Source: a virus. From it: 44,336 bases of DNA. Within the stretch, counting starts at the first letter, position 1, and every line of letters starts with the position of its first letter. The notes under the pieces are model-generated. The model had not been told where the DNA came from. It did no database searches and was given only the letters and a program-made list of their open reading frames with translations. Both the position numbers and the translations under genes were made by a program. Shown piece by piece: positions 9,042 through 44,336 of the stretch. The DNA lies in the IMG/VR virus record IMGVR_UViG_3300020437_001194, positions 1-44,336 of that record; one strand, written 5' to 3'.

Positions 9042-9058
9042 CCTTAAGTAGTAGGCTC
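9042..9058 (+). promoter_or_regulatory. CTTAAGTAGTAGG promoter before 9071
   Basis: CTTAAGTAGTAGG at 9043-9055. The AAGTAGTAGG extension is shared with the divergent pair at 18533-18573, which suggests a common regulator. TTAAGTA lies 27 bases before TTG 9071 and 36 before ATG 9080. Confidence 0.55.
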
Positions 9059-30850: not shown

Positions 30851-30860
30851 CTTAAGTATC
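30851..30860 (+). promoter_or_regulatory. CTTAAGTATC promoter before 30881/30904
   Basis: CTTAAGTATC; TTAAGTA lies 29 bases before ATG 30881, the start of an 8-codon frame, and 52 bases before TTG 30904. Confidence 0.55.
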
Positions 30861-30880: not shown

Positions 30881-30907
30881 ATGATGCTTATGGAGGTGAG
30901 GTTTTGA
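30881..30907 (+). other. Possible leaderless 8-codon upstream frame
   Basis: ATG 30881, at the window's usual distance from the promoter box, opens a frame MMLMEVRF ending in a TGA that overlaps the TTG start of the next gene (TTTTGA). The frame also contains the ribosome site GGAGGTGAGG. It may feed ribosomes into the next gene by coupling, or merely be a leader. Confidence 0.4.
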
Positions 30908-31689
30908 AGCCCTCGGCCTACTTTCAGTATCCTGATAGAAATCGAAGGACATTAGAGCGAATTAGGGGGAAAGAGTGGAAAAACGAGGCTCCCCGCAAAT
31001 TACGAGTCAATAATGAATTTGAGTTGAAGCAGGAAATTGGAACAACTGATGTGAATAAATATGCCGAACTGTGCATGGTCGGAATGATTCAGAATCGCAT
31101 ATTTAGAAATCAAACGACTCCATTCAACCAGCGCATAAACGACATTATGGAACTTTATGATGGTGAAGTGGAGAGAGAGCAGATTGAGAAAGTTTTGGTG
31201 GGATTATTTTCAGGGAATACGAATGTTGATGGAGAAAGCATAGATACAGGTAAAAGTTTGTTCACTTCAGAATGGAAGATGCAAAGGAATGACTTTTGGT
31301 TTGGAACAGTAAATACCTCGATTAATGAAGCAGTTATGTTTGAGGAATATGATGTATTGCGATTTCACACAAGAGAAGAGAGGGAGGAATACGAAACCTC
31401 GGAAAATAGATGTTGGGCATTTGGACTTTTGGGAAGAGATGAGTATTACTTTGGACTGATTATTGGAAAGGGAAGTGCGTATTCCCATTTGATTACGAAT
31501 GAGAGTGGAAATAGATTGAATTTCTCATTCAACTACTCAATGGGATTTCCTGATTTGGAGGGATATTACTTGGGTTGGAAATCGGGCGATAGGGCTTTCA
31601 TGGTTTCTCCGATGGATGATGTTTTCCTCAACGCAGGAGGGCAAGAGAGAATTGTTTCTTACAATCACCATAGGGGGTTCAAACTATGA
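30904..31689 (+). CDS. YNxxRG-tail family protein A
   Basis: A 261-residue soluble protein. It ends IVSYNHHRGFKL, the C-terminal tail shared by five proteins in the window. Inside, IEKVLVGLFSGNTN resembles the RI-x-IGLMNNS segment of two minus-strand members (40731 and 41571), so they are related along the chain, not only at the tail. No catalytic motif or known family. TTG start behind GGAGGTGAGG; first of three overlapping genes. Confidence 0.65.
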   Translation: MKPSAYFQYPDRNRRTLERIRGKEWKNEAPRKLRVNNEFELKQEIGTTDVNKYAELCMVGMIQNRIFRNQTTPFNQRINDIMELYDGEVEREQIEKVLVGLFSGNTNVDGESIDTGKSLFTSEWKMQRNDFWFGTVNTSINEAVMFEEYDVLRFHTREEREEYETSENRCWAFGLLGRDEYYFGLIIGKGSAYSHLITNESGNRLNFSFNYSMGFPDLEGYYLGWKSGDRAFMVSPMDDVFLNAGGQERIVSYNHHRGFKL

Positions 31690-32354
31690 AGCGAGTAGCA
31701 GACCTTCCTGTTTTTGATAAATGGTGGGTTAAAGATGTTGCAGATTTCCTTTATCCGATTGATGCAGAGAAAATGAAAAGCGATTACTCAAGAGATATAA
31801 TGATGGAGTTCTTAAATGGAAACGAGGATAGATATTTCCTAAATGAAATGGAAGAAGCCATCAAATTTAACACAGGCGTTGAAGGATTCTCCCCCTTTGT
31901 AAGAAAAATGATACCTGAAGATACATTATCCCCAAGCAGAATAGGAGATTACTGTTATCTGCCTGTTGAAAACTTCCTTGATATGGTAGTTGTGGAGCAA
32001 AGTAATGTTGCAGAATTGGAAAAGATGGGCTATAAATCAGGCGTGATTGTTAAGTTCGCTACGGTTAATGGAAGGCCCGAAAAAATGTGGCCTTTTTCAC
32101 TCATTAATACAGACGGAATGGGTGATTATTATGTTCCAATCGCCCGAAGGCAATTACAGGGATATGTTGTTTCCTATAATCAAGCCCAAATCAAATTCAA
32201 ACCCGATTCAAGAAAATGCAAACTCACCGAGTTTTATGAAAAGATTGGTGGAGGAACGGAGGGTAGCAACCGAAAAACTTTCATGTATCGCCCTGATGCT
32301 GATAGGAGAATTATTCAAGCCTACAATTTCTCAAGAGGATATCGAATCAGGTGA
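31686..32354 (+). CDS. YNxxRG-tail family protein B
   Basis: A 222-residue soluble protein with start ATG overlapping the previous stop (ATGA). It ends IIQAYNFSRGYRIR. The middle (DYYVPIARRQLQGYVVSYNQAQIKF) is beta-rich. Apart from the tail the likeness to its neighbours is faint, and no known family was recognised. Made from the same transcript as A and C. Confidence 0.63.
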   Translation: MKRVADLPVFDKWWVKDVADFLYPIDAEKMKSDYSRDIMMEFLNGNEDRYFLNEMEEAIKFNTGVEGFSPFVRKMIPEDTLSPSRIGDYCYLPVENFLDMVVVEQSNVAELEKMGYKSGVIVKFATVNGRPEKMWPFSLINTDGMGDYYVPIARRQLQGYVVSYNQAQIKFKPDSRKCKLTEFYEKIGGGTEGSNRKTFMYRPDADRRIIQAYNFSRGYRIR

Positions 32355-32356
32355 TA

Positions 32357-33175
32357 ATGATGGTTAAAACTTTGAATGATTTCGAGTGGGCATCAAGATT
32401 AGGAGAGCATCTTTTCTTGATAGAAACCGAAGAACTTGAAACGGCTTCCAAGTATTTTCAAAAACCTAACTCTTACAGACACAATGAATCAGGAAATGTA
32501 GGAATGTTTGAATTGATGAGAAATATGGGAGATTCAAAATATCCTCAAGTGAGCGAAATTTTGAAAGAATTAACAGGCAGAGGAAATCTGAAATTTGATT
32601 ACAGTTCTAAGGGAACTAAATCAATTGGTTTTTCGCACATGGTTGGAACTATTTCTCCTGATGAGTATCCCAAGTTTATTCTCATTGAGAGTAAAGAACA
32701 GGCAAGAGAAATTGATATGATGGATGGAACTCCCCTTTTGCTTGAATTTCCAGAGATATACCCACCATCACCATCATCAAAACAAATTCCCTTCATTTAC
32801 AAGCCTCGATTGACAATTCCTTGGGCTTTTGGTTGGGTTCGGAAAAGTAGGGAAGATGATGGTGCATTTTACTCGACAAGCACATGGTATGCTCAACCAA
32901 TGTCGAAGGAAGTGGGCATTAATTTTGAACAAAATACTACTGTTGGGCAGTTATCACAGTTTAGAAGCATAGAAAAAAGGTTCAGTTCTGCCGAAGACAT
33001 CTATGATAATTTGATGGCAGAAGAAAAAGAGAGATACAGGAGAGCCGTAGCAGTTGGTCGCAGAGAATCATTCATAAAAGGCCAATTGTATTATTACAAA
33101 GTTCCTGATAACGATAACTCAATTTTTGCTTACAACTTTGCGAGTAATCCATTTACTCTTTATGATTGGTATTGA
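32357..33175 (+). CDS. YNxxRG-tail family protein C
   Basis: A 272-residue soluble protein that starts within a few bases of the previous stop (GTG 32351, ATG 32357 or 32360 are all in frame). Its end reads SIFAYNFASNPFTLYDWY: the YNF of the tail is kept but the RG is not, and a short aromatic extension is added. Other segments (FEQNTTVGQLSQFRSIEKRF, ERYRRAVAVGRRESFIKGQL) match no known family. Third and last gene of the set. Confidence 0.63.
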   Translation: MMVKTLNDFEWASRLGEHLFLIETEELETASKYFQKPNSYRHNESGNVGMFELMRNMGDSKYPQVSEILKELTGRGNLKFDYSSKGTKSIGFSHMVGTISPDEYPKFILIESKEQAREIDMMDGTPLLLEFPEIYPPSPSSKQIPFIYKPRLTIPWAFGWVRKSREDDGAFYSTSTWYAQPMSKEVGINFEQNTTVGQLSQFRSIEKRFSSAEDIYDNLMAEEKERYRRAVAVGRRESFIKGQLYYYKVPDNDNSIFAYNFASNPFTLYDWY

Positions 33176-33183
33176 AGCGGAAT

Positions 33184-33195
33184 GTTTTTATACTA
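33184..33195 (+). promoter_or_regulatory. TTTTTATACTATA promoter before 33215
   Basis: TTTTTATACTATA, a classical TATA-like box, different from the TTAAATA and TTAAGTA forms elsewhere. The TATA core lies about 27 bases before ATG 33215, favouring that start over the in-frame 33182. Confidence 0.55.
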
Positions 33196-33214
33196 TACCC
33201 CCTTAGGATGCACT

Positions 33215-33487
33215 ATGGCAGGAAAACTGTATCATAACCGAGATTGGCTATACGAAGAATACATCACAAAAGAAAGAACCATGACTGATATTGCGAAAGA
33301 GTTTGAAATTACTCCTATGGCAATTCAACTATGGTTAGATAAACACAACATCCCAACAAGGCCGAGGGGAAATCACCAAGGAGGCCGACCAATGCCTCGA
33401 AAGCGAGAAGAAACAATCACCATAACTGTAAGAGAATACAACCGATTGATTGAGGTTGAAAACAAGTGGAGGACTCAGAATGAGTGA
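33215..33487 (+). CDS. Helix-turn-helix DNA-binding protein
   Basis: A 90-residue protein with RDWLYEEYITKERTMTDIAKEFEITPMAIQLWLDKHNIPTR, a helix-turn-helix of the kind found at the ends of homing endonucleases and in phage regulators (recognition helix PMAIQLWLDKH). A basic, proline-rich linker and a C-terminal helix (TVREYNRLIEVENKW), perhaps for dimer formation, follow. A transcription regulator is likely. It is the only gene with a canonical TATA-type box, so it might be expressed first, using host factors alone (inference). Confidence 0.7.
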   Translation: MAGKLYHNRDWLYEEYITKERTMTDIAKEFEITPMAIQLWLDKHNIPTRPRGNHQGGRPMPRKREETITITVREYNRLIEVENKWRTQNE

Positions 33488-33566
33488 TATCCACACAGAG
33501 ATGAGGGCATGGAGAAAGCACCTCAAGGATTGCCGAGAATCAGAGAATTCAAATGCTGAGGATTGA
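33480..33566 (+). CDS. 28-residue peptide
   Basis: ATG overlaps the previous stop by 8 bases. The peptide is polar and helical (IHTEMRAWRKHLKDCRESEN). Role unknown. Kept because its start and stop both overlap flanking genes. Confidence 0.38.
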   Translation: MSDIHTEMRAWRKHLKDCRESENSNAED

Positions 33567-33568
33567 AC

Positions 33569-33868
33569 ATGAGCGTTAAATTAACTGAACGAGAGTGGGA
33601 AATCATTCGATGGATTTCCGATGAAACCGAGTTTGAGGGATATGGCGACTACATTTATCATGATGAGTGGGATATGAAGATTTATCGGGGTGTTATTTCA
33701 TCCTTGATTCAAAAGAAGGTTTGTGAAATTGATTACGGATGTTCAGATGAGAAGGATAATGGAGGATACACTTGGCTATACTTGATTGACCCTGAAATTC
33801 ACAAGATTTTGAATGCTGAAAAAGCAGAGATAAATTACCCCACAGGAAAGAAATGGGAGCAAGATTAA
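33569..33868 (+). CDS. Winged-helix-like small protein
   Basis: A 99-residue protein with helices LTEREWEIIRWISDET and YRGVISSLIQKKVCEIDY followed by a hairpin GGYTWLYLIDPE, which reads like a winged-helix domain with a wing. TTG 33563 is an in-frame upstream start. Likely DNA binding; no family recognised. Confidence 0.58.
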   Translation: MSVKLTEREWEIIRWISDETEFEGYGDYIYHDEWDMKIYRGVISSLIQKKVCEIDYGCSDEKDNGGYTWLYLIDPEIHKILNAEKAEINYPTGKKWEQD

Positions 33869-33893
33869 TAAGTAGTGGCTCCATAGGCTAACA
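33863..33893 (+). promoter_or_regulatory. TTAATAAG promoter, copy of 4324
   Basis: GATTAATAAGTAGTGGCTCCATAGGCTAACA lines up with 4324-4358 with few changes, including the bases between box and expected start of transcription. A ribosome site (GGAGGATGGG) follows before ATG 33910. Confidence 0.5.
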
Positions 33894-33909
33894 CAAGGAG
33901 GATGGGAAA

Positions 33910-33996
33910 ATGAAAGAATGGAAAAGATACATCTTGGCATACCAAATTGAGAATGAAGAAGAAGGTTGGGTATTTCAAGAATTTATTGAAGAATGA
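33910..33996 (+). CDS. 28-residue peptide
   Basis: Preceded by a strong ribosome site AAGGAGGATGGGAAA and its own promoter. The peptide is acidic and aromatic (WKRYILAYQIENEEEGW). Unknown role. Confidence 0.45.
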   Translation: MKEWKRYILAYQIENEEEGWVFQEFIEE

Positions 33997-34005
33997 GGGA
34001 ATGAA

Positions 34006-34182
34006 ATGAATGAAGTTATTTTGAAAGCAGAGAATGTTCACACAGGCCGAAGGGCAGAACTGATAGATGTGGATGTTTTCTTTGGAGAAAGGATTGTTTA
34101 TGTGATGCGATATACTGATAGTGGTGATACTTTCAGAATGGATGAATCATACGAAACAAATTGGATTGAAATTGAAGAGTGA
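34006..34182 (+). CDS. 58-residue beta-rich protein
   Basis: A small protein of alternating strands (EVILKAENVHTGRRAELIDVDVFFGERIVYVMRY ... DTFRMDESYETNW). No family recognised. The next gene starts directly after its stop, so both are likely made from the 33863 promoter. Confidence 0.52.
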   Translation: MNEVILKAENVHTGRRAELIDVDVFFGERIVYVMRYTDSGDTFRMDESYETNWIEIEE

Positions 34183-34188
34183 GTGAGA

Positions 34189-34473
34189 ATGATGAGTGAA
34201 AATTACCCAATTCATTATCGAATGGGTCATGTAAGGGGAAGGCTTTCTGCCAAGCAAGCCAAGAAGGTTTATCCTGAAGAACTTGGCGGTGCGGAAGTGG
34301 AAGAAGATGTATTGCCTTACATGGTTCAGTATTGGGGGATTTTCGAGGATGAATTTACTGCATCCCTACGAAACTACAACTTAGATGCAAGCGACCCTGC
34401 TTTCAAAGCCATGAGAGATGGATGGTCAAATGGATTTCTTGATGAGATATTTCCACTAAGGGAGTTGGTTTGA
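34189..34473 (+). CDS. 94-residue protein, unknown
   Basis: Contains IHYRMGHVRGRLSAKQAKKVYPEELGG and later helices (EFTASLRNYNLDASDPAFKAM). GTG 34183 and ATG 34192 are alternative starts. No family recognised; overlapping with the next gene by one base. Confidence 0.58.
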   Translation: MMSENYPIHYRMGHVRGRLSAKQAKKVYPEELGGAEVEEDVLPYMVQYWGIFEDEFTASLRNYNLDASDPAFKAMRDGWSNGFLDEIFPLRELV

Positions 34474-35156
34474 TGAGTATGAATCAAAAGCAAACAGTAG
34501 TGAAAATCAAAAACGATGGCAACCCCATTTACTTGAGGTCGGCTCAAGGCTTTGATACTCGCAGAACTTTCAGAACACTTCTTGAACACCGAGAAGAGGG
34601 AGCCTACAAAATCACAGATATTCATGGTCAATTTATTTTCATTCCTGCTCATGCCTTTGAAACTGCAAGGCGAAGAGTTGAAAATTTACACAAGGAAGAA
34701 ATCAAATTCAGGGAGTTCCCAAAAATTGCTCCATCGGAAATTTACAAACTAATCCGTTTCGCTAACGATGCCACAAAAATACGAAATGATAGGTTTGAAG
34801 AAAGAAGCGGATATGCCGAATATGGTCTTGGAGCAATCAATCTTTTGCTTCAATGTGCAAACAGACTTTCGCTCAATCGAAATGTGCTATGGAAGTTGCG
34901 AAAAAATATGTCGCCTGACATGGTTCATGAGTTGAAGATGAAGTCATACCGTATCAAAAGACAACATCAAAGTGGATTGATTCGAGGTTTGCCCTTTGAA
35001 GAAGCAAGCAAGGTTTTGAAAATCAAGTTTAGTTCCAAGACGATGAGTGGGTATCCCTTTGTGTTTTCGTTTATCCAAATGGATTCTGCCAAATTGTTGT
35101 TGAATACAGTTTATCTGAATGGAGATTCAATGCCTGAAAATACTATTCAAGCATAG
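34473..35156 (+). CDS. 227-residue basic protein, unknown
   Basis: A basic protein: a beta-rich N-terminus (VVKIKNDGNPIYLRSAQGFDTRRTFRTLLEH), a middle helix pair (FETARRRVENLHKEEIKF, SEIYKLIRFANDATKIRNDRF) and a C-terminal set of helices with KMKSYRIKRQHQSGLI. The charge suggests nucleic-acid binding. No family recognised. Its start overlaps the previous gene's stop. Confidence 0.6.
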   Translation: MSMNQKQTVVKIKNDGNPIYLRSAQGFDTRRTFRTLLEHREEGAYKITDIHGQFIFIPAHAFETARRRVENLHKEEIKFREFPKIAPSEIYKLIRFANDATKIRNDRFEERSGYAEYGLGAINLLLQCANRLSLNRNVLWKLRKNMSPDMVHELKMKSYRIKRQHQSGLIRGLPFEEASKVLKIKFSSKTMSGYPFVFSFIQMDSAKLLLNTVYLNGDSMPENTIQA

Positions 35157-35160
35157 AAAC

Positions 35161-35170
35161 ATTTAAGTGG
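35161..35170 (+). promoter_or_regulatory. TTTAAGTGGG promoter before 35194/35203
   Basis: ATTTAAGTGGG; TTAAGTG lies 31 bases before GTG 35194 and 40 before ATG 35203. Confidence 0.5.
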
Positions 35171-35202
35171 GTAATCGCCAAAGTGGAGATTAAGTGAGAA
35201 AC

Positions 35203-35679
35203 ATGGCGTTGAGTAATGAGCAAATTTTGTTTATTGTTGCATTGGTAGCGGCACTTATTTTGCCGCTTTGGATGAGACACAAAGACAAGTTAATGAAGAA
35301 GGCAGAAGAAGTTTTGGATGATGTTGAAGATATCATTGAAGATAAGACAGGTCTTGATATTGAACTATCGGATGCAGTTGGAGAGGTGCTTGAAGATGTG
35401 GCTGATTCCGTATCTGATGCACTTGAAGATGTCGCTGAAGATGGCGTTTTAGATTCGGGTGAACAAATTGTTTCGGATTTGAAGGACTCTGCTGAATCGG
35501 CAGTTGATGAGATTTCCGATGAAGTTTCCGATGCCGTCAAGAATGAGATTCTTGAAAAGTTGAATTCCAAGAAAGTAAGTGAACTCAAAGATTTGCTAAA
35601 GGCACATGGACTAAATGTTGGTGGAGTCAAGCAAGAGTTAGTTGATAGATTGGTTGAAGCAGGAGTTGATGTGGAATGA
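35203..35679 (+). CDS. Membrane-anchored SAP-domain protein
   Basis: A 158-residue protein with an N-terminal membrane segment (ILFIVALVAALILPLWM) followed by RHKDK, so the rest should be cytoplasmic or internal. A long acidic helix of repeating V-x-D units (DDVEDIIEDKTG, VLEDVADSVSDALEDV) follows, and the last 35 residues are a SAP-type DNA-binding motif (KKVSELKDLLKAHGLNVGGVKQELVDRLVEAG). The design suggests a tether between DNA and a membrane, either host or particle. GTG 35194 is an alternative start. It overlaps the next membrane protein. Confidence 0.72.
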   Translation: MALSNEQILFIVALVAALILPLWMRHKDKLMKKAEEVLDDVEDIIEDKTGLDIELSDAVGEVLEDVADSVSDALEDVAEDGVLDSGEQIVSDLKDSAESAVDEISDEVSDAVKNEILEKLNSKKVSELKDLLKAHGLNVGGVKQELVDRLVEAGVDVE

Positions 35680-35852
35680 AGTGGAATTTACTTGGATTGA
35701 TTGCTTGTCTTCTTTCGATTATTGGAAGCATTTACATTTTCGTATATCAAGATGAGAACTTGGGTATCTTTGTAGGTTTGTGGGCTTCGGCACTACTTCT
35801 CCTGTCTGAAAGGGTTCCTCAAGTCCTTGCAGAGATGAAGAATAAAGAATAG
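35676..35852 (+). CDS. 58-residue two-span membrane protein
   Basis: ATG overlaps the previous stop. Two membrane segments (WNLLGLIACLLSIIGSIYIFV and LGIFVGLWASALLLL) separated by the polar turn YQDEN, then a basic tail. No family. Second gene of the membrane module 35203-39699. Confidence 0.6.
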   Translation: MKWNLLGLIACLLSIIGSIYIFVYQDENLGIFVGLWASALLLLSERVPQVLAEMKNKE

Positions 35853-35867
35853 GCTTCAAACAGAAAC

Positions 35868-35877
35868 CATTAAATCT
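35868..35877 (+). promoter_or_regulatory. ATTAAATCTC box before 35906
   Basis: CATTAAATCTCGG; TTAAATC starts 36 bases before ATG 35906. Weaker than the TTAAATAGG boxes. Confidence 0.4.
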
Positions 35878-35905
35878 CGGTAAGTTCAAACCTTAACCGA
35901 GAGTC

Positions 35906-37924
35906 ATGGATGAAGATTTAGACGATTTGACTGAAAAGGCCAAAGTGCTTTCAGAAGCCACAGGTCGAGATGTTGAGGATGTCCTTGAAGATTTGCTTGA
36001 TGATGGCAAACTAAATAGGTCAAATCAAGATGGTGCGAAGGATTTGGTTTCTCAATTGAAAGAGGCCGCAGAACTGATTACAACTGTTCAGGGAATCTCA
36101 AAAGAGATTTCAAGCAACACCGTTCTGAATGGTGGCGACAACAAAACAGAGTTGAAGGTTGATACCACTCTTGAAGGAGATATTGTTGATAGAGCAATTG
36201 AATCTGTTCAACGAAAGGCCGACAATTTGAAGAAACTCCTTGCATCTTTGATTCCATTCTTCCTACTCTTGACAGGTGGAAGCCTTGAAGCCTTTGGTGT
36301 CATTGATATCATGGGTGATGAATCCGATGCTGATTATGATGATGAGTATTGGGTCGAAGTTTGGGGATGCACCGCACCTGACGCAGAAAACTTCATGCCT
36401 GATGCAACCGTTGATGATGGGACTTGTTATTGGGATGACAACAATGGCGGTGGCGGTGGCCCGCCTCCCGTAAATTGTCAATGGTCATGGAATGATTACT
36501 CTTTCTTGGATAATGAAGACCACTTGGTAGTCAGAGCAAACTTTGGTGATGATTCATGCCCGCATGAGATGGAAGGGCGATTCACCGTTGAACTGCACAA
36601 AGATGGCTACTATCAAACCGAACATTCATGGGATAACATCAAGTTCAAGCACAATTATGAAATCAACTTCATCTTTTCAGATTTGGAAGAGGGCGTTTAT
36701 CGAAACCACTTTAGTTTTGAAACATACGATGGCTCAAATTGGAATTGGGATTCTCCTGAAACTCATGAAGTGATGGCAGAGGTGGAATGTAGTGCATTCC
36801 TTCAAAATCAAAATGCCTTCCTTGACGAAGAGGATGCAGAACAAGATGCAGTCAAGATGACTGTTGATATTGCCATCCCTTCTGAGGTCGGTGATGCTTG
36901 CGATTCCCACCAATTTGAATTAACTTGGAGATTGTATGTTGATAATCAAGTGCAATATGAGGAACACTCATGGGAAGACGGATGGATTTCTGATAACGAC
37001 AGAGCAGATTTCGCCTCATTCACCATACAAGATGTTGCAGTAGGAACATACGACCCAAGAATCATTTTGAAACTTGATGGCGATACGGTGATTGATGAGA
37101 AGTGGCTTTCAGACTCAATTACTGTGGCTGAACAAACCATTTTCGGATGCACCGATTCAGAAGCCACCAACTACGATGACTCAGCCAATGAAGACGATGG
37201 TTCATGCGAATATCCTGAGCCTGAAGAACCTTGTGATGTGGAAATTCACAATCACTATCGAGGTCATGTGGCCGATGATGCTGAACAAGACGCTATCTTG
37301 GTGGCCTTTAGAGTGGTTCCAAGCAACTGTGAGGGTGAAGAAATCGAGATTGATATTCAGTTGTTCCAAAACGGATATGATGCAAACTATTCTCATTGGC
37401 AAACTGTGAGTGGAGATGAGGAATACATTGATGTTTCCCACACATTTGACGGAGTGGCCGTAGGAAATTCTTGGACTCCGACCATTATTGCTTCTTTGGA
37501 TAGCGACATTTTGGAACAGGTTTGGTTTTGGGGAATTGATGTGGTGGAACAAGAGCCTGAAACTTGTGAAATCAATTTGTTTTGGATTGAAATAGCGACA
37601 AATTCAACCCATGCTTCAGTAGGTTATGACCTTGATTGTGGGTATGATTCAAACAATCTTGAGGGTTATAATGTATCAGTTCAGTTCTTAGTATATGAAG
37701 TTAATGGTAGCAATAGTGGAAATGGAACAGGCCCGATTCAATATACAACTGACCTTCACTACATTCAAGGATGGGTCGAAGATAACAACTATCTCACTCT
37801 GACCAATTTTACAGAATCAAATGCTACACATTATGACTTCTATTTTTATGCTATTTGGGTTGATGCTGATGGAGAACAACAATTCATTGAACAAACATGG
37901 CTAAATAGAGAACTACAACCTTGA
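35906..37924 (+). CDS. Large surface protein, single-span, disulfide repeats
   Basis: A 672-residue protein. Residues 1-108 form an acidic helical part (KAKVLSEATGRDVEDVLEDLL), 109-130 a membrane segment (LLASLIPFFLLLTGG), and the remaining 540 residues probably lie outside: beta-sandwich-like repeats and two cysteine units of the marine type (GCTAPDAENF ... DDGTCYW near residue 154; GCTDSEATNY ... DDGSCEY near residue 414). The beta repeats share the phrase LxxNxxxxxxxHSW (EHSWDNIKF, EHSWEDGWI, YSHWQTV), suggesting internal duplication of a domain of about 115 residues. A fibre, spike or adhesin is the best guess. The same cysteine unit in genes 13572 and 14250 ties them to the same surface. 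Confidence 0.75.
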   Translation: MDEDLDDLTEKAKVLSEATGRDVEDVLEDLLDDGKLNRSNQDGAKDLVSQLKEAAELITTVQGISKEISSNTVLNGGDNKTELKVDTTLEGDIVDRAIESVQRKADNLKKLLASLIPFFLLLTGGSLEAFGVIDIMGDESDADYDDEYWVEVWGCTAPDAENFMPDATVDDGTCYWDDNNGGGGGPPPVNCQWSWNDYSFLDNEDHLVVRANFGDDSCPHEMEGRFTVELHKDGYYQTEHSWDNIKFKHNYEINFIFSDLEEGVYRNHFSFETYDGSNWNWDSPETHEVMAEVECSAFLQNQNAFLDEEDAEQDAVKMTVDIAIPSEVGDACDSHQFELTWRLYVDNQVQYEEHSWEDGWISDNDRADFASFTIQDVAVGTYDPRIILKLDGDTVIDEKWLSDSITVAEQTIFGCTDSEATNYDDSANEDDGSCEYPEPEEPCDVEIHNHYRGHVADDAEQDAILVAFRVVPSNCEGEEIEIDIQLFQNGYDANYSHWQTVSGDEEYIDVSHTFDGVAVGNSWTPTIIASLDSDILEQVWFWGIDVVEQEPETCEINLFWIEIATNSTHASVGYDLDCGYDSNNLEGYNVSVQFLVYEVNGSNSGNGTGPIQYTTDLHYIQGWVEDNNYLTLTNFTESNATHYDFYFYAIWVDADGEQQFIEQTWLNRELQP

Positions 37925-37933
37925 GGTGAATGA

Positions 37934-38290
37934 ATGAGAAAAATCGAGTGGGATATTAGGATTACTTTTAACAACCTCATGGTTGCTTTGCTTTCAGTCC
38001 CACTTGTCATGATTTTCATGCTACTTTCCTATCAACTCATAACTACTGCTTTTGTTGATGACCAAGTTCGGCAAGATATCGAATCCTACATCGCAGTTCT
38101 CGGTATCCTTAGCGGTCCCGCTTACATGGCGATTTCAAGATTCTTTGATAGGTGGAATGCTGAAGAAGAAGAATACATTGAATCCATACGAAGGTTGCAC
38201 AAAACTGAGAATGACATCAGGAGAGCGCAAGGCAAATTACAAGAAGATGAGGAACCCATCATCATTGTTGAGGCAGATGATGAAGAATGA
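37934..38290 (+). CDS. 118-residue membrane protein
   Basis: Two hydrophobic segments (LMVALLSVPLVMIFMLLSYQLI and YIAVLGILSGPAYMAI) and a charged C-terminal helix ending in acidic residues (EDEEPIIIVEADDEE). Nine bases after the surface protein and overlapping the next gene by 4 bases. No family recognised; a partner of the large surface protein is possible. Confidence 0.65.
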   Translation: MRKIEWDIRITFNNLMVALLSVPLVMIFMLLSYQLITTAFVDDQVRQDIESYIAVLGILSGPAYMAISRFFDRWNAEEEEYIESIRRLHKTENDIRRAQGKLQEDEEPIIIVEADDEE

Positions 38291-38553
38291 TTGTTGAAGG
38301 AGTCAAATGGTTTTTCAAACCTGATAGCGTCTTCGCTACGGAAAGATTGGCTAAAGGTGAGTATGAGGTAATTCCTTCATTGTTGAAAAACGCATTCAAA
38401 AGAGCCATTTTTATCGCACCGGGCATTCGTCTTGTAGGAGTCAGAGGCAAACAATTAGTGGGAGCCTCAGTATTGGGTTCAATCGGTGTTTCACTTTCTT
38501 TGGTGGCATACTTTTTGATGACTCCTGACTACACAACTGACCTCTGCGAATAG
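38287..38553 (+). CDS. 88-residue membrane protein
   Basis: A basic N-terminal half with a region FKRAIFIAPGIRLVGVRG and a C-terminal membrane segment (VLGSIGVSLSLVAYFLM), ending a few residues later. Start overlaps the previous stop. No family recognised. Confidence 0.6.
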   Translation: MIVEGVKWFFKPDSVFATERLAKGEYEVIPSLLKNAFKRAIFIAPGIRLVGVRGKQLVGASVLGSIGVSLSLVAYFLMTPDYTTDLCE

Positions 38554-38559
38554 GGGAAT

Positions 38560-38570
38560 CTTTAACACTC
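38560..38570 (+). promoter_or_regulatory. CTTTAACACTC promoter before 38598
   Basis: TCTTTAACACTCAG, the same 10 bases as at 12856-12866 before the anchored paralogue at 12890, showing a third box class. Confidence 0.5.
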
Positions 38571-38597
38571 AGCACCAACAACGATAGAGGGATACTC

Positions 38598-38993
38598 ATG
38601 AGCAAGATAATCATCGGAACTGTATTCGTATTCGGTGCATCGGGTTTCTATCTGTTAAAAAACATGAAATCTATCCAAGCCATGCTTGAAGAAAAATATG
38701 GCAGAAAGATAATGGATGGTGTTGGTTATTTGGGTGGCGCACTTCAACTTGGAGCAGTCGTAGCAGTATCAAGAGGATGGTTGGCAAATACTGACCCTCT
38801 TTATCATGGTATCAGTTTGGTTGGTTCATCAGGTTTGCTTGCTACTGCTTACTACCATGATGCACTTGCACCTGTTTTGGTGAACTTGATTTGGATGGGT
38901 ATGAACACAGTTGGAATACTTGAAGGAATTTCCAACACTCAAGCAATTATTCGTATGACTGATGCTTCCACTTATGTTCCTACTGCGGCATAA
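38598..38993 (+). CDS. 131-residue multi-span membrane protein
   Basis: At least three hydrophobic segments (IIGTVFVFGASGFYLL; GYLGGALQLGAVVAV; GLLATAYYHDALAPVLVNLIW) with short polar links, ending in a polar tail. No family recognised. Own promoter; belongs to the membrane module. Confidence 0.65.
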   Translation: MSKIIIGTVFVFGASGFYLLKNMKSIQAMLEEKYGRKIMDGVGYLGGALQLGAVVAVSRGWLANTDPLYHGISLVGSSGLLATAYYHDALAPVLVNLIWMGMNTVGILEGISNTQAIIRMTDASTYVPTAA

Positions 38994-38995
38994 TG

Positions 38996-39005
38996 CTTAA
39001 ATATG
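38996..39005 (+). promoter_or_regulatory. CTTAAATATG promoter before 39028
   Basis: GCTTAAATATG; TTAAATA lies 31 bases before GTG 39028 and 40 before ATG 39037. Confidence 0.55.
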
Positions 39006-39027
39006 AGGCCATAATAGTATAGATTAG

Positions 39028-39699
39028 GTGAGCATAATGGAATACCGACACACATTTAATCCCGAAGGAAAAACGGAGATTAGAAAAAAGGCATACCTTG
39101 ATATGAGGGGACATTTTCCTAAAGTGGGAAAGAAAAAAACTATTCCGATTGAACTTAATGAGTATTGGATTAGTGATGAAAACCCCGATAACTCATACGG
39201 ACCAATTAGAAACATAGGGAGAGTTTCATTGGTTGATGATACAATCTATTTTCGGAAAGAACTTCAATCGGATTTTCCTGACTATGGGATTACCTCAAAC
39301 GATAGAAGGTGGGATTGTTTCATTTACATCTATGGATATTCAAACTTTGATGAAAATACCTACATCAATGCAACAATTGAGAAGGTTTGGAATGACACAA
39401 AAGGCAACAGGGGATGGAGATATTCATTCAAGGTTGATGATATAATCTATGGGGGAGATAGGATAGACCTTGAAGGAAAGGATAAAGCACCCTATTTTGA
39501 TTTATACCCTTATGCAAAAAACCAAAATCAAGCACTTCAAAGAATCATAAAAGGTGCAAATAGAGTCTTAGGTGATGATTGGAAAACCATACAAAAACCT
39601 CAACCATCAAAGGAAAACAAATCAAAGAAACCATTCCGAATCCCTATAATTGGAGGGATAGTGGCTTTGGCGAGTGCATGGATTTATCGAAACAGATGA
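39028..39699 (+). CDS. Tail-anchored protein, unknown
   Basis: A 223-residue protein. A soluble region (HMRG and PIELNEYWISDENPDNSYGPIRNIGRVSLVDDTIYF, then YIYGYSNFDENTYINATIEKVWN) is followed by a lysine-rich linker and one C-terminal membrane segment (IPIIGGIVALASAWIYRN). This is the same tail-anchored design as in 11669-14861, but without the FGN start. GTG 39028 is at the usual distance from the box; ATG 39037 is the alternative. Confidence 0.65.
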   Translation: MSIMEYRHTFNPEGKTEIRKKAYLDMRGHFPKVGKKKTIPIELNEYWISDENPDNSYGPIRNIGRVSLVDDTIYFRKELQSDFPDYGITSNDRRWDCFIYIYGYSNFDENTYINATIEKVWNDTKGNRGWRYSFKVDDIIYGGDRIDLEGKDKAPYFDLYPYAKNQNQALQRIIKGANRVLGDDWKTIQKPQPSKENKSKKPFRIPIIGGIVALASAWIYRNR

Positions 39700-39706
39700 A
39701 GCGAAT

Positions 39707-39717
39707 GCTTAAATAGG
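39707..39717 (+). promoter_or_regulatory. CTTAAATAGG promoter before 39750
   Basis: GCTTAAATAGGTTG; TTAAATA is 41 bases before ATG 39750, which has a purine-rich leader (TTGGGGAACC). Confidence 0.55.
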
Positions 39718-39749
39718 TTGTTTCCTCAAGATTGATTTGGGGAACCAAA

Positions 39750-39926
39750 ATGGATAAGATGAAGGTGAAAGTAAATTCGATGGATGAATTTACGAGAATC
39801 AAATTAAAGAATGCAACGGGAGAAATCCTATGCTACATTCGATACAATCCAAACTTAAACACTTTGGAAATACAAGACACAAAAAAACAATCGCTTCGTT
39901 GGGTTCCCCTGAATGAACGGAGATGA
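39750..39926 (+). CDS. 58-residue protein, unknown
   Basis: Beta-rich small protein (VKVNSMDEFTRIKLKNATGEILCYIRY ... LEIQDTKKQSLRWVPL). No family. TTG 39732 is an alternative start, but it is too near the box for the usual spacing. Confidence 0.5.
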   Translation: MDKMKVKVNSMDEFTRIKLKNATGEILCYIRYNPNLNTLEIQDTKKQSLRWVPLNERR

Positions 39927-40015
39927 ATTTACAATTATGGTATGGTTTTGAAAACTTGGAAGAAGAAAGATTTCAACGAAAACTTGATAAAGGTATCAGC
40001 ACAACCATCAATTAA
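39923..40015 (+). CDS. 30-residue peptide
   Basis: ATG overlaps the previous stop by 4 bases (ATGA) and the next gene begins directly after its stop. The product (MNLQLWYGFENLEEERFQRK ...) is helical and polar. Function unknown; kept mainly because of its coupled position. Confidence 0.4.
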   Translation: MNLQLWYGFENLEEERFQRKLDKGISTTIN

Positions 40016-40024
40016 GTGAGAGTT

Positions 40025-40252
40025 ATGAAGACAATGAAAGGACTTACCCAAATTGAAATGCTTATGGAACACTTTGAGAATGTTGATAATATCAGCAACA
40101 TTGAGGCTCAAGCGGTGTATAAGATTCGAGCGTTGCCTCGAAGAATCGCAGACTTGAAAGAGCGAGGATATGATTTCCGAGCAGAGTGGAAGAGAGATTT
40201 GACAGGTCAGAGATACAAGAGATACTTCCTTGTTTCTCGACCCCAAAACTGA
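40025..40252 (+). CDS. HTH_39-like winged-helix regulator
   Basis: A 75-residue protein in the style of the small phage helix-turn-helix proteins that begin TQIEMLMEHFENVDNISNIEAQAVYKIRALPRRIADLKERGY. The helix AQAVYKIRALPRRIADLKE is the recognition region and RYKRYFLV the wing. Members bind DNA and are often found next to phage replication genes. GTG 40016, right after the previous stop, is also in frame. Confidence 0.68.
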   Translation: MKTMKGLTQIEMLMEHFENVDNISNIEAQAVYKIRALPRRIADLKERGYDFRAEWKRDLTGQRYKRYFLVSRPQN

Positions 40253-40259
40253 ATTCAAT

Positions 40260-40331
40260 GGGTGTGTGGTGTAATGGATAGCATCTTGGCCTTCTAAGCC
40301 GAGGATAGGGGTTCGATTCCTCTCACGCCCG
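40260..40331 (+). tRNA. tRNA-Arg (anticodon TCT)
   Basis: A full cloverleaf: acceptor GGGTGTG with CACGCCC, anticodon stem TTGGC/GCCGA with loop CTTCTAA giving TCT, and T arm with GGTTCGATTCC. CCA is not coded. It reads AGA codons. Confidence 0.92.
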
Positions 40332-40354
40332 TTTAATTTTCAAAGGTGAATATC

Positions 40355-40540
40355 ATGGAATATGAAATACCCAAACGATTGAAGGTGGATAGGTATGGCA
40401 GAATTGCTTGTGAAGACTGTGGCAGGTGGGGCTATATAGAAGAAAGAAAGAATTCAACCACACCCGATGGCCGATGGCTTTGTCCTCGATGTTGGTTTCA
40501 AGTTGTCAAAGGCAGACCTCTATGGCAAAAGGTTAAATAG
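40355..40540 (+). CDS. 61-residue zinc-ribbon protein
   Basis: Sequence has CEDCGRWGYI and WLCPRCWFQ, two CxxC pairs about 22 residues apart, a typical zinc ribbon, in a basic context (KRLKVDRYGR). GTG 40346 is an upstream alternative. It stands between tRNA genes. A role in nucleic-acid binding is plausible. Confidence 0.62.
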   Translation: MEYEIPKRLKVDRYGRIACEDCGRWGYIEERKNSTTPDGRWLCPRCWFQVVKGRPLWQKVK

Positions 40541-40541
40541 A
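40531..40541 (+). promoter_or_regulatory. TTAAATAGAGG promoter for tRNA pair
   Basis: GGTTAAATAGAGG; TTAAATA starts 31 bases before the first base of the tRNA at 40564, the same spacing as for coding genes. This confirms that the box marks the start of transcription. Confidence 0.6.
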
Positions 40542-40563
40542 GGTGGCCTATATGGATTATCAT

Positions 40564-40638
40564 GGGCGAGTAGTTTAATGGAAAAACATTCCGTTGCGGG
40601 CGGAAAGACTGCGGGTTCAATTCCCGCCTTGTCCACCA
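40564..40638 (+). tRNA. tRNA-Arg (anticodon GCG), CCA coded
   Basis: Acceptor GGGCGAG pairs with CTTGTCC (with G-T pairs); anticodon stem TTCCG/CGGAA holds the loop TTGCGGG, anticodon GCG, reading CGC and CGT; T arm GCGGGTTCAATTCCCGC. ACCA follows the acceptor, so the CCA end is coded. Confidence 0.88.
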
Positions 40639-40653
40639 TTTTATTCCAAATCT

Positions 40654-40728
40654 GAGCGTATAGTGTAATGGATATCACATTGGCCTCCTAAGCCGAAAAT
40701 CGGGGTTCGATTCCCTGTATGCTCGCCA
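40654..40728 (+). tRNA. tRNA-Arg (anticodon CCT), CCA coded
   Basis: Acceptor GAGCGTA with TATGCTC; anticodon stem TTGGC/GCCGA and loop CTCCTAA giving CCT, reading AGG; T arm with GGTTCGATTCC; then G and CCA. Its body is very like the TCT tRNA at 40260, a likely duplication with an altered anticodon. Sixteen bases after the GCG tRNA and so probably on the same transcript. Confidence 0.9.
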
Positions 40729-40730
40729 AC

Positions 40731-41570
40731 CTACAATCCCTTATGGAAATTGTATGAGTAAATTTTTCTTGGACTTGCAGAAATTAAGACGCTCAACAAA
40801 TCAGGGTCATTGGGGTCAAGACCCGCCAATGCAGATGGAATTGTGATTAAATTCGCCTTCCAAGGAACAGACCAACCATCGAAACTCGTTCCTTCAAACG
40901 AAACTCCCTCAGTTCCCGCCCCAAGATATCGGAAAAATTCATTGACTTGCCTCATTGGAATTGAGTCAATATCTCCCCCATCCTCAGGAGTGAATGGATA
41001 CCTAAACGATGGGTAATCCTCTCTATTTATCATCTTTGTAGGGGTTGGAAACCTACGCAACCTGCGATTTGTTCTGTCGTAAGCCGTTTGCAGACATCCT
41101 TTGAGATAGTTTGATATGAAATACCGCAACTTGGTTTTTGTTTTCTGTGCAGACCTCAAAGGACTCAGGCTCAGTATGTTGCTTGATACCGATTTAAGGC
41201 TACTATTCATCATCCCGATTACAATTCTTCCCGCTAATGTTTTCTTGTCTATTGTCGTCATCCTTGATGAAGTGGAGAGATTTTCTGAATTTTCAAGTTC
41301 TTTCAATATCAAGTTGTATATCGCAATTGTAAGTGGAGGCAAGAAATTTTTCTCATATAATTCGGTTCCACCTATGTTTCGACTGTATTCTTGCCGAGGC
41401 ATCAAAAAAGCACCCCTCTCTCGGATTGCTTGGTCTAATTCCTTAGTGAGTGATATCCATTCAACCAAGTAATCTAAATAGTCTGAAGGCCACTTACGGA
41501 TAACTTCATTGTATGCTTTTTCATACTCTTCCAAGAAGATTCTATTCACCCTTTCATCAAGATTTACCAT
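40731..41570 (-). CDS. YNxxRG-tail family protein D
   Basis: A 279-residue soluble protein on the minus strand. It ends IYSYNFHKGL (K for R in the tail). Two segments align with the gene at 41571: RIVIGMMNSSLKSVSSN against a matching IGLMNNSDTSFSSGN, and FDGWSVPWKANLIT against LEGWQAPYRSALVD, so D and E are clear paralogues. No known family. Its start lies just behind the stop of protein E, giving a two-gene minus-strand operon; its 3' end abuts the tRNA cluster. Confidence 0.68.
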   Translation of the reverse strand: MVNLDERVNRIFLEEYEKAYNEVIRKWPSDYLDYLVEWISLTKELDQAIRERGAFLMPRQEYSRNIGGTELYEKNFLPPLTIAIYNLILKELENSENLSTSSRMTTIDKKTLAGRIVIGMMNSSLKSVSSNILSLSPLRSAQKTKTKLRYFISNYLKGCLQTAYDRTNRRLRRFPTPTKMINREDYPSFRYPFTPEDGGDIDSIPMRQVNEFFRYLGAGTEGVSFEGTSFDGWSVPWKANLITIPSALAGLDPNDPDLLSVLISASPRKIYSYNFHKGL

Positions 41571-42377
41571 CTATTTCGACCCCCTGTAATAGTTGTAAGC
41601 GTAAATGAAGTTGCGTGTGATTTTATCTTCTGCGAAGGGGTCAAACCAATAGAAGGTATCAACCAATGCACTTCTGTATGGGGCTTGCCAACCCTCCAAA
41701 ACATTCGGTAAAGTCTCAATCATTCCATCTAAAGTCAGCCTACCCATAAACGAAATTTGCCCATCACTCAAAAAGCCTTTATTTTCAACTTCTTCATTCC
41801 ACCCATTAGGCAACTCATACAACTCACTAATTGCAGACATGGTGGAAATACATCCCATCACCCACTCTCCTGCACTAAATGGTATGTTTCTGATAAGTCC
41901 TCCACCACCAACACCTATCATTGGAATTCCTGAATTTCTGAGTCCGTTTCTGTATTCAAAGGTCTGTTTTATTTTCAATCTTTCATCTTGACTCAACCTG
42001 AAGCGCAATAGCCCCATCTCCCCCTCCCCCGACAACTTCATCTTTTCCTTATCTGTTTCTGATAAACCCTTCCAACTCATCAAATCGAATGAATTTCCAC
42101 TACTGAATGATGTGTCAGAGTTATTCATCAATCCAATAAGCAAGATAGAGGCTATTCGTTTCCTTATTTCGGGTGGCCTTCGTTGGTCTAACGCCTTGTG
42201 ATAGAAAAGTGAAAGGAATACTTGATGGTCAGGATTGAAAAAACACCTATCGTCTTGAACCGAATTATATCTCCGATAATTCCATTCTTCGGGATTTTCG
42301 CTCCACAAGTCAAGAAACTCTTCCAACTTACTTCCCTCCATCCATTCAGGGGGGGCAGGGTATCTCCGAACCACCAT
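41571..42377 (-). CDS. YNxxRG-tail family protein E
   Basis: A 268-residue minus-strand protein, with a paralogue (protein D) coded downstream. It ends FIYAYNYYRGSK. Its middle has a glycine run (GVGGGGLIRN) and a helix LLIGLMNN shared with D and, weakly, with protein A. It starts at ATG 42377; a TTAAGTATC box on the minus strand lies 40 bases upstream. In-frame codons up to 42425 would put the start upstream of that box, which is unlikely. Function unknown. Confidence 0.68.
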   Translation of the reverse strand: MVVRRYPAPPEWMEGSKLEEFLDLWSENPEEWNYRRYNSVQDDRCFFNPDHQVFLSLFYHKALDQRRPPEIRKRIASILLIGLMNNSDTSFSSGNSFDLMSWKGLSETDKEKMKLSGEGEMGLLRFRLSQDERLKIKQTFEYRNGLRNSGIPMIGVGGGGLIRNIPFSAGEWVMGCISTMSAISELYELPNGWNEEVENKGFLSDGQISFMGRLTLDGMIETLPNVLEGWQAPYRSALVDTFYWFDPFAEDKITRNFIYAYNYYRGSK

Positions 42378-42408
42378 AACACAAGATATCGAGGTTTTGA
42401 TACTTAAT

Positions 42409-42700: not shown

Positions 42701-44336
42701 ATGGATTCTCGATGGAAGGAAATTTTGGCATTAGGTGTTGGAGTTTTTGCGACATTCAAAGGATTAGATTACCTTACCAAGAAAACTTTCCTTTCCAAGT
42801 ATTTAGCAGAAGATTGGTCAGGTGAACTGTATGATGTTCCCTTTGCGGTGAATTACTTCTGTGCAAGTGAAGTATTGAAAACAAACGGGCAACCAAGTAA
42901 AAAGGCCGTCAATACAATTCGGCAAGCCCTCATGCGCCCCGAACTTCCTTTCTTGAATTTCGATAGAAAACAGACAAAGGTTCTCATCAAAATGATTCAA
43001 AACAGGCTTCGACACTATGAGGAATTGTATTACTCTGAAGGAGAATTAGCCCTACGAAGAGAAATTGAAAACACAGAACTCAGGCTCATGGAAGTATCCT
43101 CCCCCGAATTGTTTGATTACATGAAGAGAGAAGCATTTTCGGCTCAACTCAGAGGATTGCCTGAATTGCCACCTACACGAATGGATAGGGTAAGGGTTAG
43201 GTTCGCACCGAATCCAAATGGACCGCTTAGTATGGGACATTCTTTTGGAATTATCATTAATGACATCTATGCGAAGGCATACGATGGTGAATACATTTTG
43301 AGGTTTGATGATACTGACCCTGACCAAAAGCGACCCCTTCCTGAACTTTACAGTCAAATCAAAGAAGAGTTTGAATTTTTGACTGATAGAACTCCAAGTG
43401 AATACAAAATTCACATCTCTTCGGAAAATAGCAACCGATACATCACATTGGCGAGAAGGCTCATTGAGGAAGGCAAGGCTTATGTTTCATTTATTCCACA
43501 AGGAGATTTTTCCGAATTTTATCAGCGACCTATGGAAAAGGAAGGCATAGAATCTCCTGACAGGAATAAGAGTATCGAAACAAACCTTCGGCAGTTTGAG
43601 GAAATGATTCAAAACGGATATTACACCGAGGAAGATGGTTCCACAAAAAAACCAACGGACAATCACATCGTAGGGGTGGGGCAAACCACAGTTCCGACAG
43701 TTTGGTTAAAAACACCAATGGATTCATACGGCAAATTCAGGGATATCAAGATTATGAGAGCCACATTCAGAACTCACCCCAACATTGAGGGTTATGTTTG
43801 GCCTTACCTTGCATTTCAGGGAGCCGTTGATGACCATGACTTGAAAGTATCTCACATGATTCGAGGTTGCGACCTTTGGGAAACCGAAATTGCTTATTCC
43901 TTGATTTGGAAGGAACTCGGTTGGAGTCTTGATGAGTTGCCTGTTTTCATGTATTGGCCGAGACTGTTCTTCTCAAACTTTGCAGTTCCTTATTCCGACC
44001 CTCAAACGGGAGAACCTAAATTGCTGAGAGCAATCGGAACATCGAAGTTGGCAAGATTGGTTAGGTTGCCTGAATACGATAACAATTGGTGCAACCCATT
44101 TTTCCCAACGGTTTGTTCTTACATGGCAAAAGGATATCCTGCCTCTTACCTCCGAGACTTTTGGATGGGCGAGGTTTGGGGCAAGCAATTCCCATTCTTC
44201 AACCAAGGAGAAATCACAAAGGATGGGAAAACTTATGAGCCACTTACTCTGAAAATGAGAGAAGCAAGGTGTGAAATGAGGATTGGTCAAAAGTCATTGG
44301 GCTATTTCAAAAATGAACAAGCAAGAGTTCCATACC
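42701..44336 (+). CDS. Divergent archaeal-type GluRS-like synthetase, 3' partial
   Basis: An open frame of 545 codons that runs off the right edge. It matches archaeal glutamyl-tRNA synthetase: RVRFAPNPNGPLSMGH near residue 167, then RFDDTDPDQKRP, and further GYVWPYLAFQGAVDDHDLKVSHMIRG. The HIGH motif reads SMGH, and the KMSKS region reads GTSKLARL near residue 445; both depart from the usual form but keep the last histidine and the SK. The N-terminus adds about 20 residues with a hydrophobic stretch (ILALGVGVFATFKGL), unusual for a soluble synthetase. It would charge tRNA-Glu (or Gln), or serve another tRNA-related role. No Glu tRNA is in the window. Confidence 0.82.
   Translation, partial: MDSRWKEILALGVGVFATFKGLDYLTKKTFLSKYLAEDWSGELYDVPFAVNYFCASEVLKTNGQPSKKAVNTIRQALMRPELPFLNFDRKQTKVLIKMIQNRLRHYEELYYSEGELALRREIENTELRLMEVSSPELFDYMKREAFSAQLRGLPELPPTRMDRVRVRFAPNPNGPLSMGHSFGIIINDIYAKAYDGEYILRFDDTDPDQKRPLPELYSQIKEEFEFLTDRTPSEYKIHISSENSNRYITLARRLIEEGKAYVSFIPQGDFSEFYQRPMEKEGIESPDRNKSIETNLRQFEEMIQNGYYTEEDGSTKKPTDNHIVGVGQTTVPTVWLKTPMDSYGKFRDIKIMRATFRTHPNIEGYVWPYLAFQGAVDDHDLKVSHMIRGCDLWETEIAYSLIWKELGWSLDELPVFMYWPRLFFSNFAVPYSDPQTGEPKLLRAIGTSKLARLVRLPEYDNNWCNPFFPTVCSYMAKGYPASYLRDFWMGEVWGKQFPFFNQGEITKDGKTYEPLTLKMREARCEMRIGQKSLGYFKNEQARVPY

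Follow-up and report, generated by a model that had tools for sequence, protein, structure and literature searches.

Five diverged proteins with a common C-terminal tail probably form a lineage-specific paralog family in a large marine archaeal virus or virus-like element

Introduction

Fast-evolving, lineage-specific paralog families of accessory genes are a general phenomenon in viruses. A short conserved C-terminal sequence on several proteins of one system is known from the encapsulin cargo-loading peptides, and in the PGF-CTERM and LPXTG signals a transmembrane helix and a basic end follow the motif.

The five proteins analyzed here, termed a to e, resemble viral accessory paralog families in that they occur as tandem overlapping copies in one lineage, are absent from relatives, and are strongly diverged, but they differ from such families in that a short C-terminal motif is the best-kept part and no member has a known domain. 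As with the encapsulin cargo-loading peptides, it is the extreme C-terminus of the proteins that carries a short conserved sequence; unlike these, a to e are conserved past the tail and have partly related bodies. The C-terminal location is shared with sorting signals of the PGF-CTERM or LPXTG type, but here the YNxxRG position is followed by no more than 0-10 residues, with no such helix.

Results

The window, which is the whole stretch of DNA that was analyzed, is the 44.3-kb virus record IMGVR_UViG_3300020437_001194. Nearly all of it is contained in a second record of this virus, the 123-kb sister IMGVR_UViG_3300038530_004289 (G001). Over 42.5 kb, a single substitution and a 6-base gap separate the two records, too little variation for measuring selection; this near-identity indicates a single genotype, and the second record thus provides no independent evidence. 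The source is a large archaeal virus, or virus-like element, of marine origin with genes for the PolD large subunit (DP2), an MCM domain, and RNR. DP2 and a conserved 218-aa protein led us to four related elements, 136-166 kb in size, and the DP2 of the related elements forms, together with a Red Sea contig, a fully supported clade that is separate from cellular archaea.

Table 1. Positions of the five genes, their C-terminal motifs, and neighboring features in the window.
Feature	Position	Strand	Remarks
TTAAGTATC of putative operon a-b-c	30852..30860	+	52 nt before the TTG of a
Protein a	30904..31689	+	261 aa; TTG start; first gene of putative operon a-b-c; tail IVSYNHHRGFKL
C-terminal motif of a	31651..31686	+	codons AGGGGG, probably also Shine-Dalgarno of b
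Protein b	31686..32354	+	222 aa; ATG overlaps stop of a; tail IIQAYNFSRGYRIR
C-terminal motif of b	32310..32351	+	codons AGAGGA, may be Shine-Dalgarno of c
Protein c	32357..33175	+	272-274 aa; possible starts from 32351; tail IFAYNFASNPFTLYDWY; YNF kept, RG absent
C-terminal motif of c	33122..33172	+	variant: RG absent, longer end
Three tRNA-Arg genes (TCT, GCG, CCT)	40259..40728	+	between both loci, facing the end of d
Protein d	40731..41570	-	279 aa; second gene of putative operon e-d; tail IYSYNFHKGL
C-terminal motif of d	40734..40763	-	AAGGGA; no following gene on the same strand
Protein e	41571..42377	-	268 aa from ATG 42377; tail IYAYNYYRGSK
C-terminal motif of e	41574..41606	-	AGGGGG, probably also Shine-Dalgarno of d
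TTAAGTATC of putative operon e-d	42399..42407	-	30 nt before ATG 42377

The genes a-b-c on the plus strand and e-d on the minus strand look like two operons (Table 1), with b, c, and d each overlapping or abutting the preceding gene. An earlier note made from the sequence had assigned a promoter motif to all five genes; TTAAGTATC was found before the operon heads a and e only, whereas b, c, and d have the preceding gene there instead. The most likely start of e is ATG 42377, as the longer frame to 42425 runs through the promoter motif. Upstream of a, a short frame (MMLMEVRF, window 30881-30907) begins 29 nt past the promoter motif and overlaps the TTG of a; it may possibly encode a leader peptide.

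TTAAGTATC is a genuine element-wide motif that is conserved across related elements. It reads TTAAGTA at window positions 9044, 11639, 20348, 30852, 42407, and 42672, and most copies in G001, G002, G005, and G006 begin 29 (±1) nt upstream of a start codon, a spacing that would fit a probable promoter whose transcripts are nearly leaderless. Several structural-block genes, the GluRS gene, and the gene of an 1822-aa protein have the motif upstream in G001, and none was found before DP2, MCM, PCNA, and FEN1. From this distribution, late expression of both operons would be expected.

All five reading frames and their endings were found where the earlier note had placed them, namely SYNHHRGFKL (a), AYNFSRGYRIR (b), AYNFASNPFTLYDWY (c), SYNFHKGL (d), and AYNYYRGSK (e). 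The consensus I-x(1,2)-[AS]-Y-N-[FYH]-x-[RK]-G stands at or near the end of a, b, d, and e. In c, IxAYNF is kept, RG is absent, and a longer end runs to NPFTLYDWY, so that a count of five proteins with YNxxRG was an overstatement. The following counts are post hoc, as these very proteins had served to define the motif: the 150 ORFs of G001 (38,509 aa) contain 71 YN, 14 [AS]YN, and 4 YNxx[RK]G, and each YNxx[RK]G is located at the C-terminus of a, b, d, or e; [AS]YN within the last ~20 residues occurs five times, exclusively in a to e, where about one protein is expected; and the DNA pattern TAYAAYN6ARRGG has 4 matches in 123 kb, each of them a tail, compared with 0 for the reversed control.

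As the motif had been read off the proteins themselves, we left out one protein at a time, made a profile from the C-terminal 35 columns of the others as a less circular test, and ranked 823 ORFs with each profile. The omitted protein came out at rank 1 for b and d, at rank 2 for e, at rank 3 for a, and at rank 12 for c, which is the weakest member. When the clusters e/d and b/a/c were aligned separately and compared profile to profile, they matched at the tail (E 0.003). The shared ending is real and goes beyond chance.

The conserved unit extends past the tail and includes a hydrophobic stretch and a PxxD block 10-25 residues upstream. When 40 residues upstream of the tail were included, the alignment of the five sequences outscored that of shuffled versions (p about 0.01), but it no longer did so when 60 or 100 were taken. 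The bodies of d and e are related (BLAST E 0.003, shuffle p 0.003), in agreement with the previous observation that the proteins at 40731 and 41571 share segments past the tail. The internal match between a and e that had been proposed alongside it (VGLFSGNTN with IGLMNNS) was not significant (shuffle p 0.38). By the same shuffling, the bodies of a, b, and c mostly could not be aligned with those of d and e past chance, apart from a marginal value for b-d (p 0.04), and among a, b, and c only the pair a-c was marginal (p 0.045), the others not being significant. Near the N-terminus, all five proteins carry [EK]W (post hoc binomial p 2e-4, against a background of [EKD]W in 18% of 715 proteins from five elements), and four of the five have EW followed by x5-10 and L. 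Two AlphaFold2 predictions gave no usable model (pLDDT 32.5 and 32.7). Taken together, the tail, the PxxD block, the N-terminal [EK]W, and the d/e bodies support the claim of the earlier note that the five proteins belong together.

In a, b, and e, the codons for RG (AGG GGG or AGA GGA) are located at the expected ribosome-binding site of the next gene, and RG is therefore partly dual-coded. The gene after c starts past a gap, and c has no RG. The AAGGGA of d is not a ribosome-binding site, because no gene follows d on the same strand; as d nevertheless keeps YNFHKG, the motif must be more than such a site. A DNA-level site in place of a protein motif was also considered and is unlikely, because the third codon positions of the tail differ among the members.

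The same ending, for which the earlier note had proposed a search in other genomes, was found in none wherever we searched. With the Pfam, NCBIfam, PHROGs, and PADLOC profiles, each of a to e yielded 0 families, and PDB sequences matched the family at chance level only. No match was obtained by tblastn with e in phages or with d in plasmids. Scans of IMG/VR with a, e, b, and the e/d alignment returned only the same virus, as did scans with the neighboring 817-aa protein and GluRS. Searches of the four related elements by pattern, by profile, and with phmmer yielded neither the tail nor a member of the family, and no family member was detected in 340 genomes of the class of one Poseidoniales genome; the power of these homolog searches is limited, because the profile is based on five very divergent sequences. 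Within the virus, no other protein carries the tail (~150 ORFs scanned). Among the papers covered by our literature searches, none describes this family.

Discussion

We consider it probable that the five are late accessory proteins from one lineage-specific paralog family, with a structural or partner-binding unit at the C-terminus. Gene duplication within a single large archaeal virus (or virus-like element) would have given rise to the five genes, and the copies would then have diverged until most bodies could no longer be aligned. At the limit of detection, we infer common descent for all five. The best-kept part would be a C-terminal unit of ~30 residues that comprises the hydrophobic stretch, PxxD, a variable spacer, and I-x(1,2)-[AS]-Y-N-[FYH]-x-[RK]-G. 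As to the role of the tail, we infer that this unit most likely serves all copies alike as a structural or partner-binding element, whereas the bodies may vary to meet different targets. Both operons appear to be driven by TTAAGTATC, as for structural-block genes, and the presence of this motif before such genes, whose putative structural identity itself derives from synteny and a nearby packaging-type ATPase, suggests that the five proteins are soluble late accessory proteins, which could be virion-associated or host-interacting.

The earlier note had proposed a signal for recognition, packaging, or processing, and in principle the tail could be a C-terminal signal dedicated to docking, cargo loading, or virion packaging, carried by otherwise unrelated proteins and read by one virus-encoded receptor. 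The location at or near the very end, where conservation is strongest, the bodies of a, b, and c that mostly cannot be aligned with d/e, and the promoter motif common to structural-block genes would all agree with such a signal. However, the PxxD block and [EK]W in all five proteins as well as the d/e bodies show similarity past the tail, no further carrier turned up among the scanned ORFs of the virus, and the tails are confined to two gene clusters. Similarity upstream of the tail, at the N-terminus, and through the d/e bodies thus favors one extremely diverged paralog family over a grafted signal, and we regard the latter as unlikely. For this same reason, a pure address tag on unrelated proteins is less likely; that YNxxRG is a C-terminal address tag by which a virus-encoded receptor loads diversifying effectors into the virion or an assembly site seems quite unlikely to us. 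If it were true, an archaeal virus group with its own D-family DNA polymerase could be using a peptide to label virion cargo. As the set was seen in one virus only, it looks like a lineage-specific gene family and not like a proven sorting tag.

The overlap with ribosome-binding sites could also be taken to mean that RG is a by-product of the next gene's Shine-Dalgarno sequence and that YN reflects coincidence or weak ancestry. This would be in line with the position of the RG codons in a, b, and e and with the lack of RG in c, after which the next gene starts past a gap, but HKG is present in d, which no gene follows on that strand, YN with the preceding I and [AS] is kept in five of five proteins although the third codon positions vary, and the upstream PxxD is unrelated to translation signals, which makes this account very unlikely. 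Finally, a chance resemblance among unrelated orphan genes might be suspected from the searches, which found no homologs, from the post hoc motif, and from the body comparisons, most of which were not significant. The placement of four of four motif instances at C-termini of two clusters, the leave-one-out ranks, and the d/e similarity speak so clearly against chance that we give it hardly any weight.

The paralog family that we favor is new to every library searched, and orphan paralog sets of such kind are common in viruses. In comparison, the virus group around the five genes looks more remarkable than the tail itself. The marine elements of 123-166 kb with a PolD DP2 form a DP2 clade of their own, and two members of the group are present in public MAGs labelled Woesearchaeota and Rickettsiales. 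G001 encodes a HerA/FtsK-like ATPase and an ArsA/Get3-family ATPase (PF02374, 1e-62) at G001:70396-71697 and 75342-76568; a PHROG with the name terminase large subunit matches the HerA/FtsK-like ATPase as well. Many proteins of G001 have an apparent hydrophobic segment at the C-terminus. Adjoining the e-d operon, the three tRNA-Arg genes (window 40259-40728) and a GluRS/GlnRS-like gene (42701-44336) were noted, and in two related elements ARAGORN detected zero tRNA genes.

Two further short motifs were observed in this group. The motif [AG]ExFEA (AETFEA, AEEFEA, and others) occurs in ~30 copies in G001, where 0-1.4 are expected, often in very large proteins and with up to 6 copies per protein; three related copies lie at window 25884-28337, and the related elements are less strongly enriched. 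It may represent a protease cleavage site in polyproteins. In one related element (G004:C16), INW[LI] is found five times compared with 0.4 expected; it sits near the N-terminus of proteins with differing bodies, as in MSEVINWL, MSEIINWI, and MSGVINWL.
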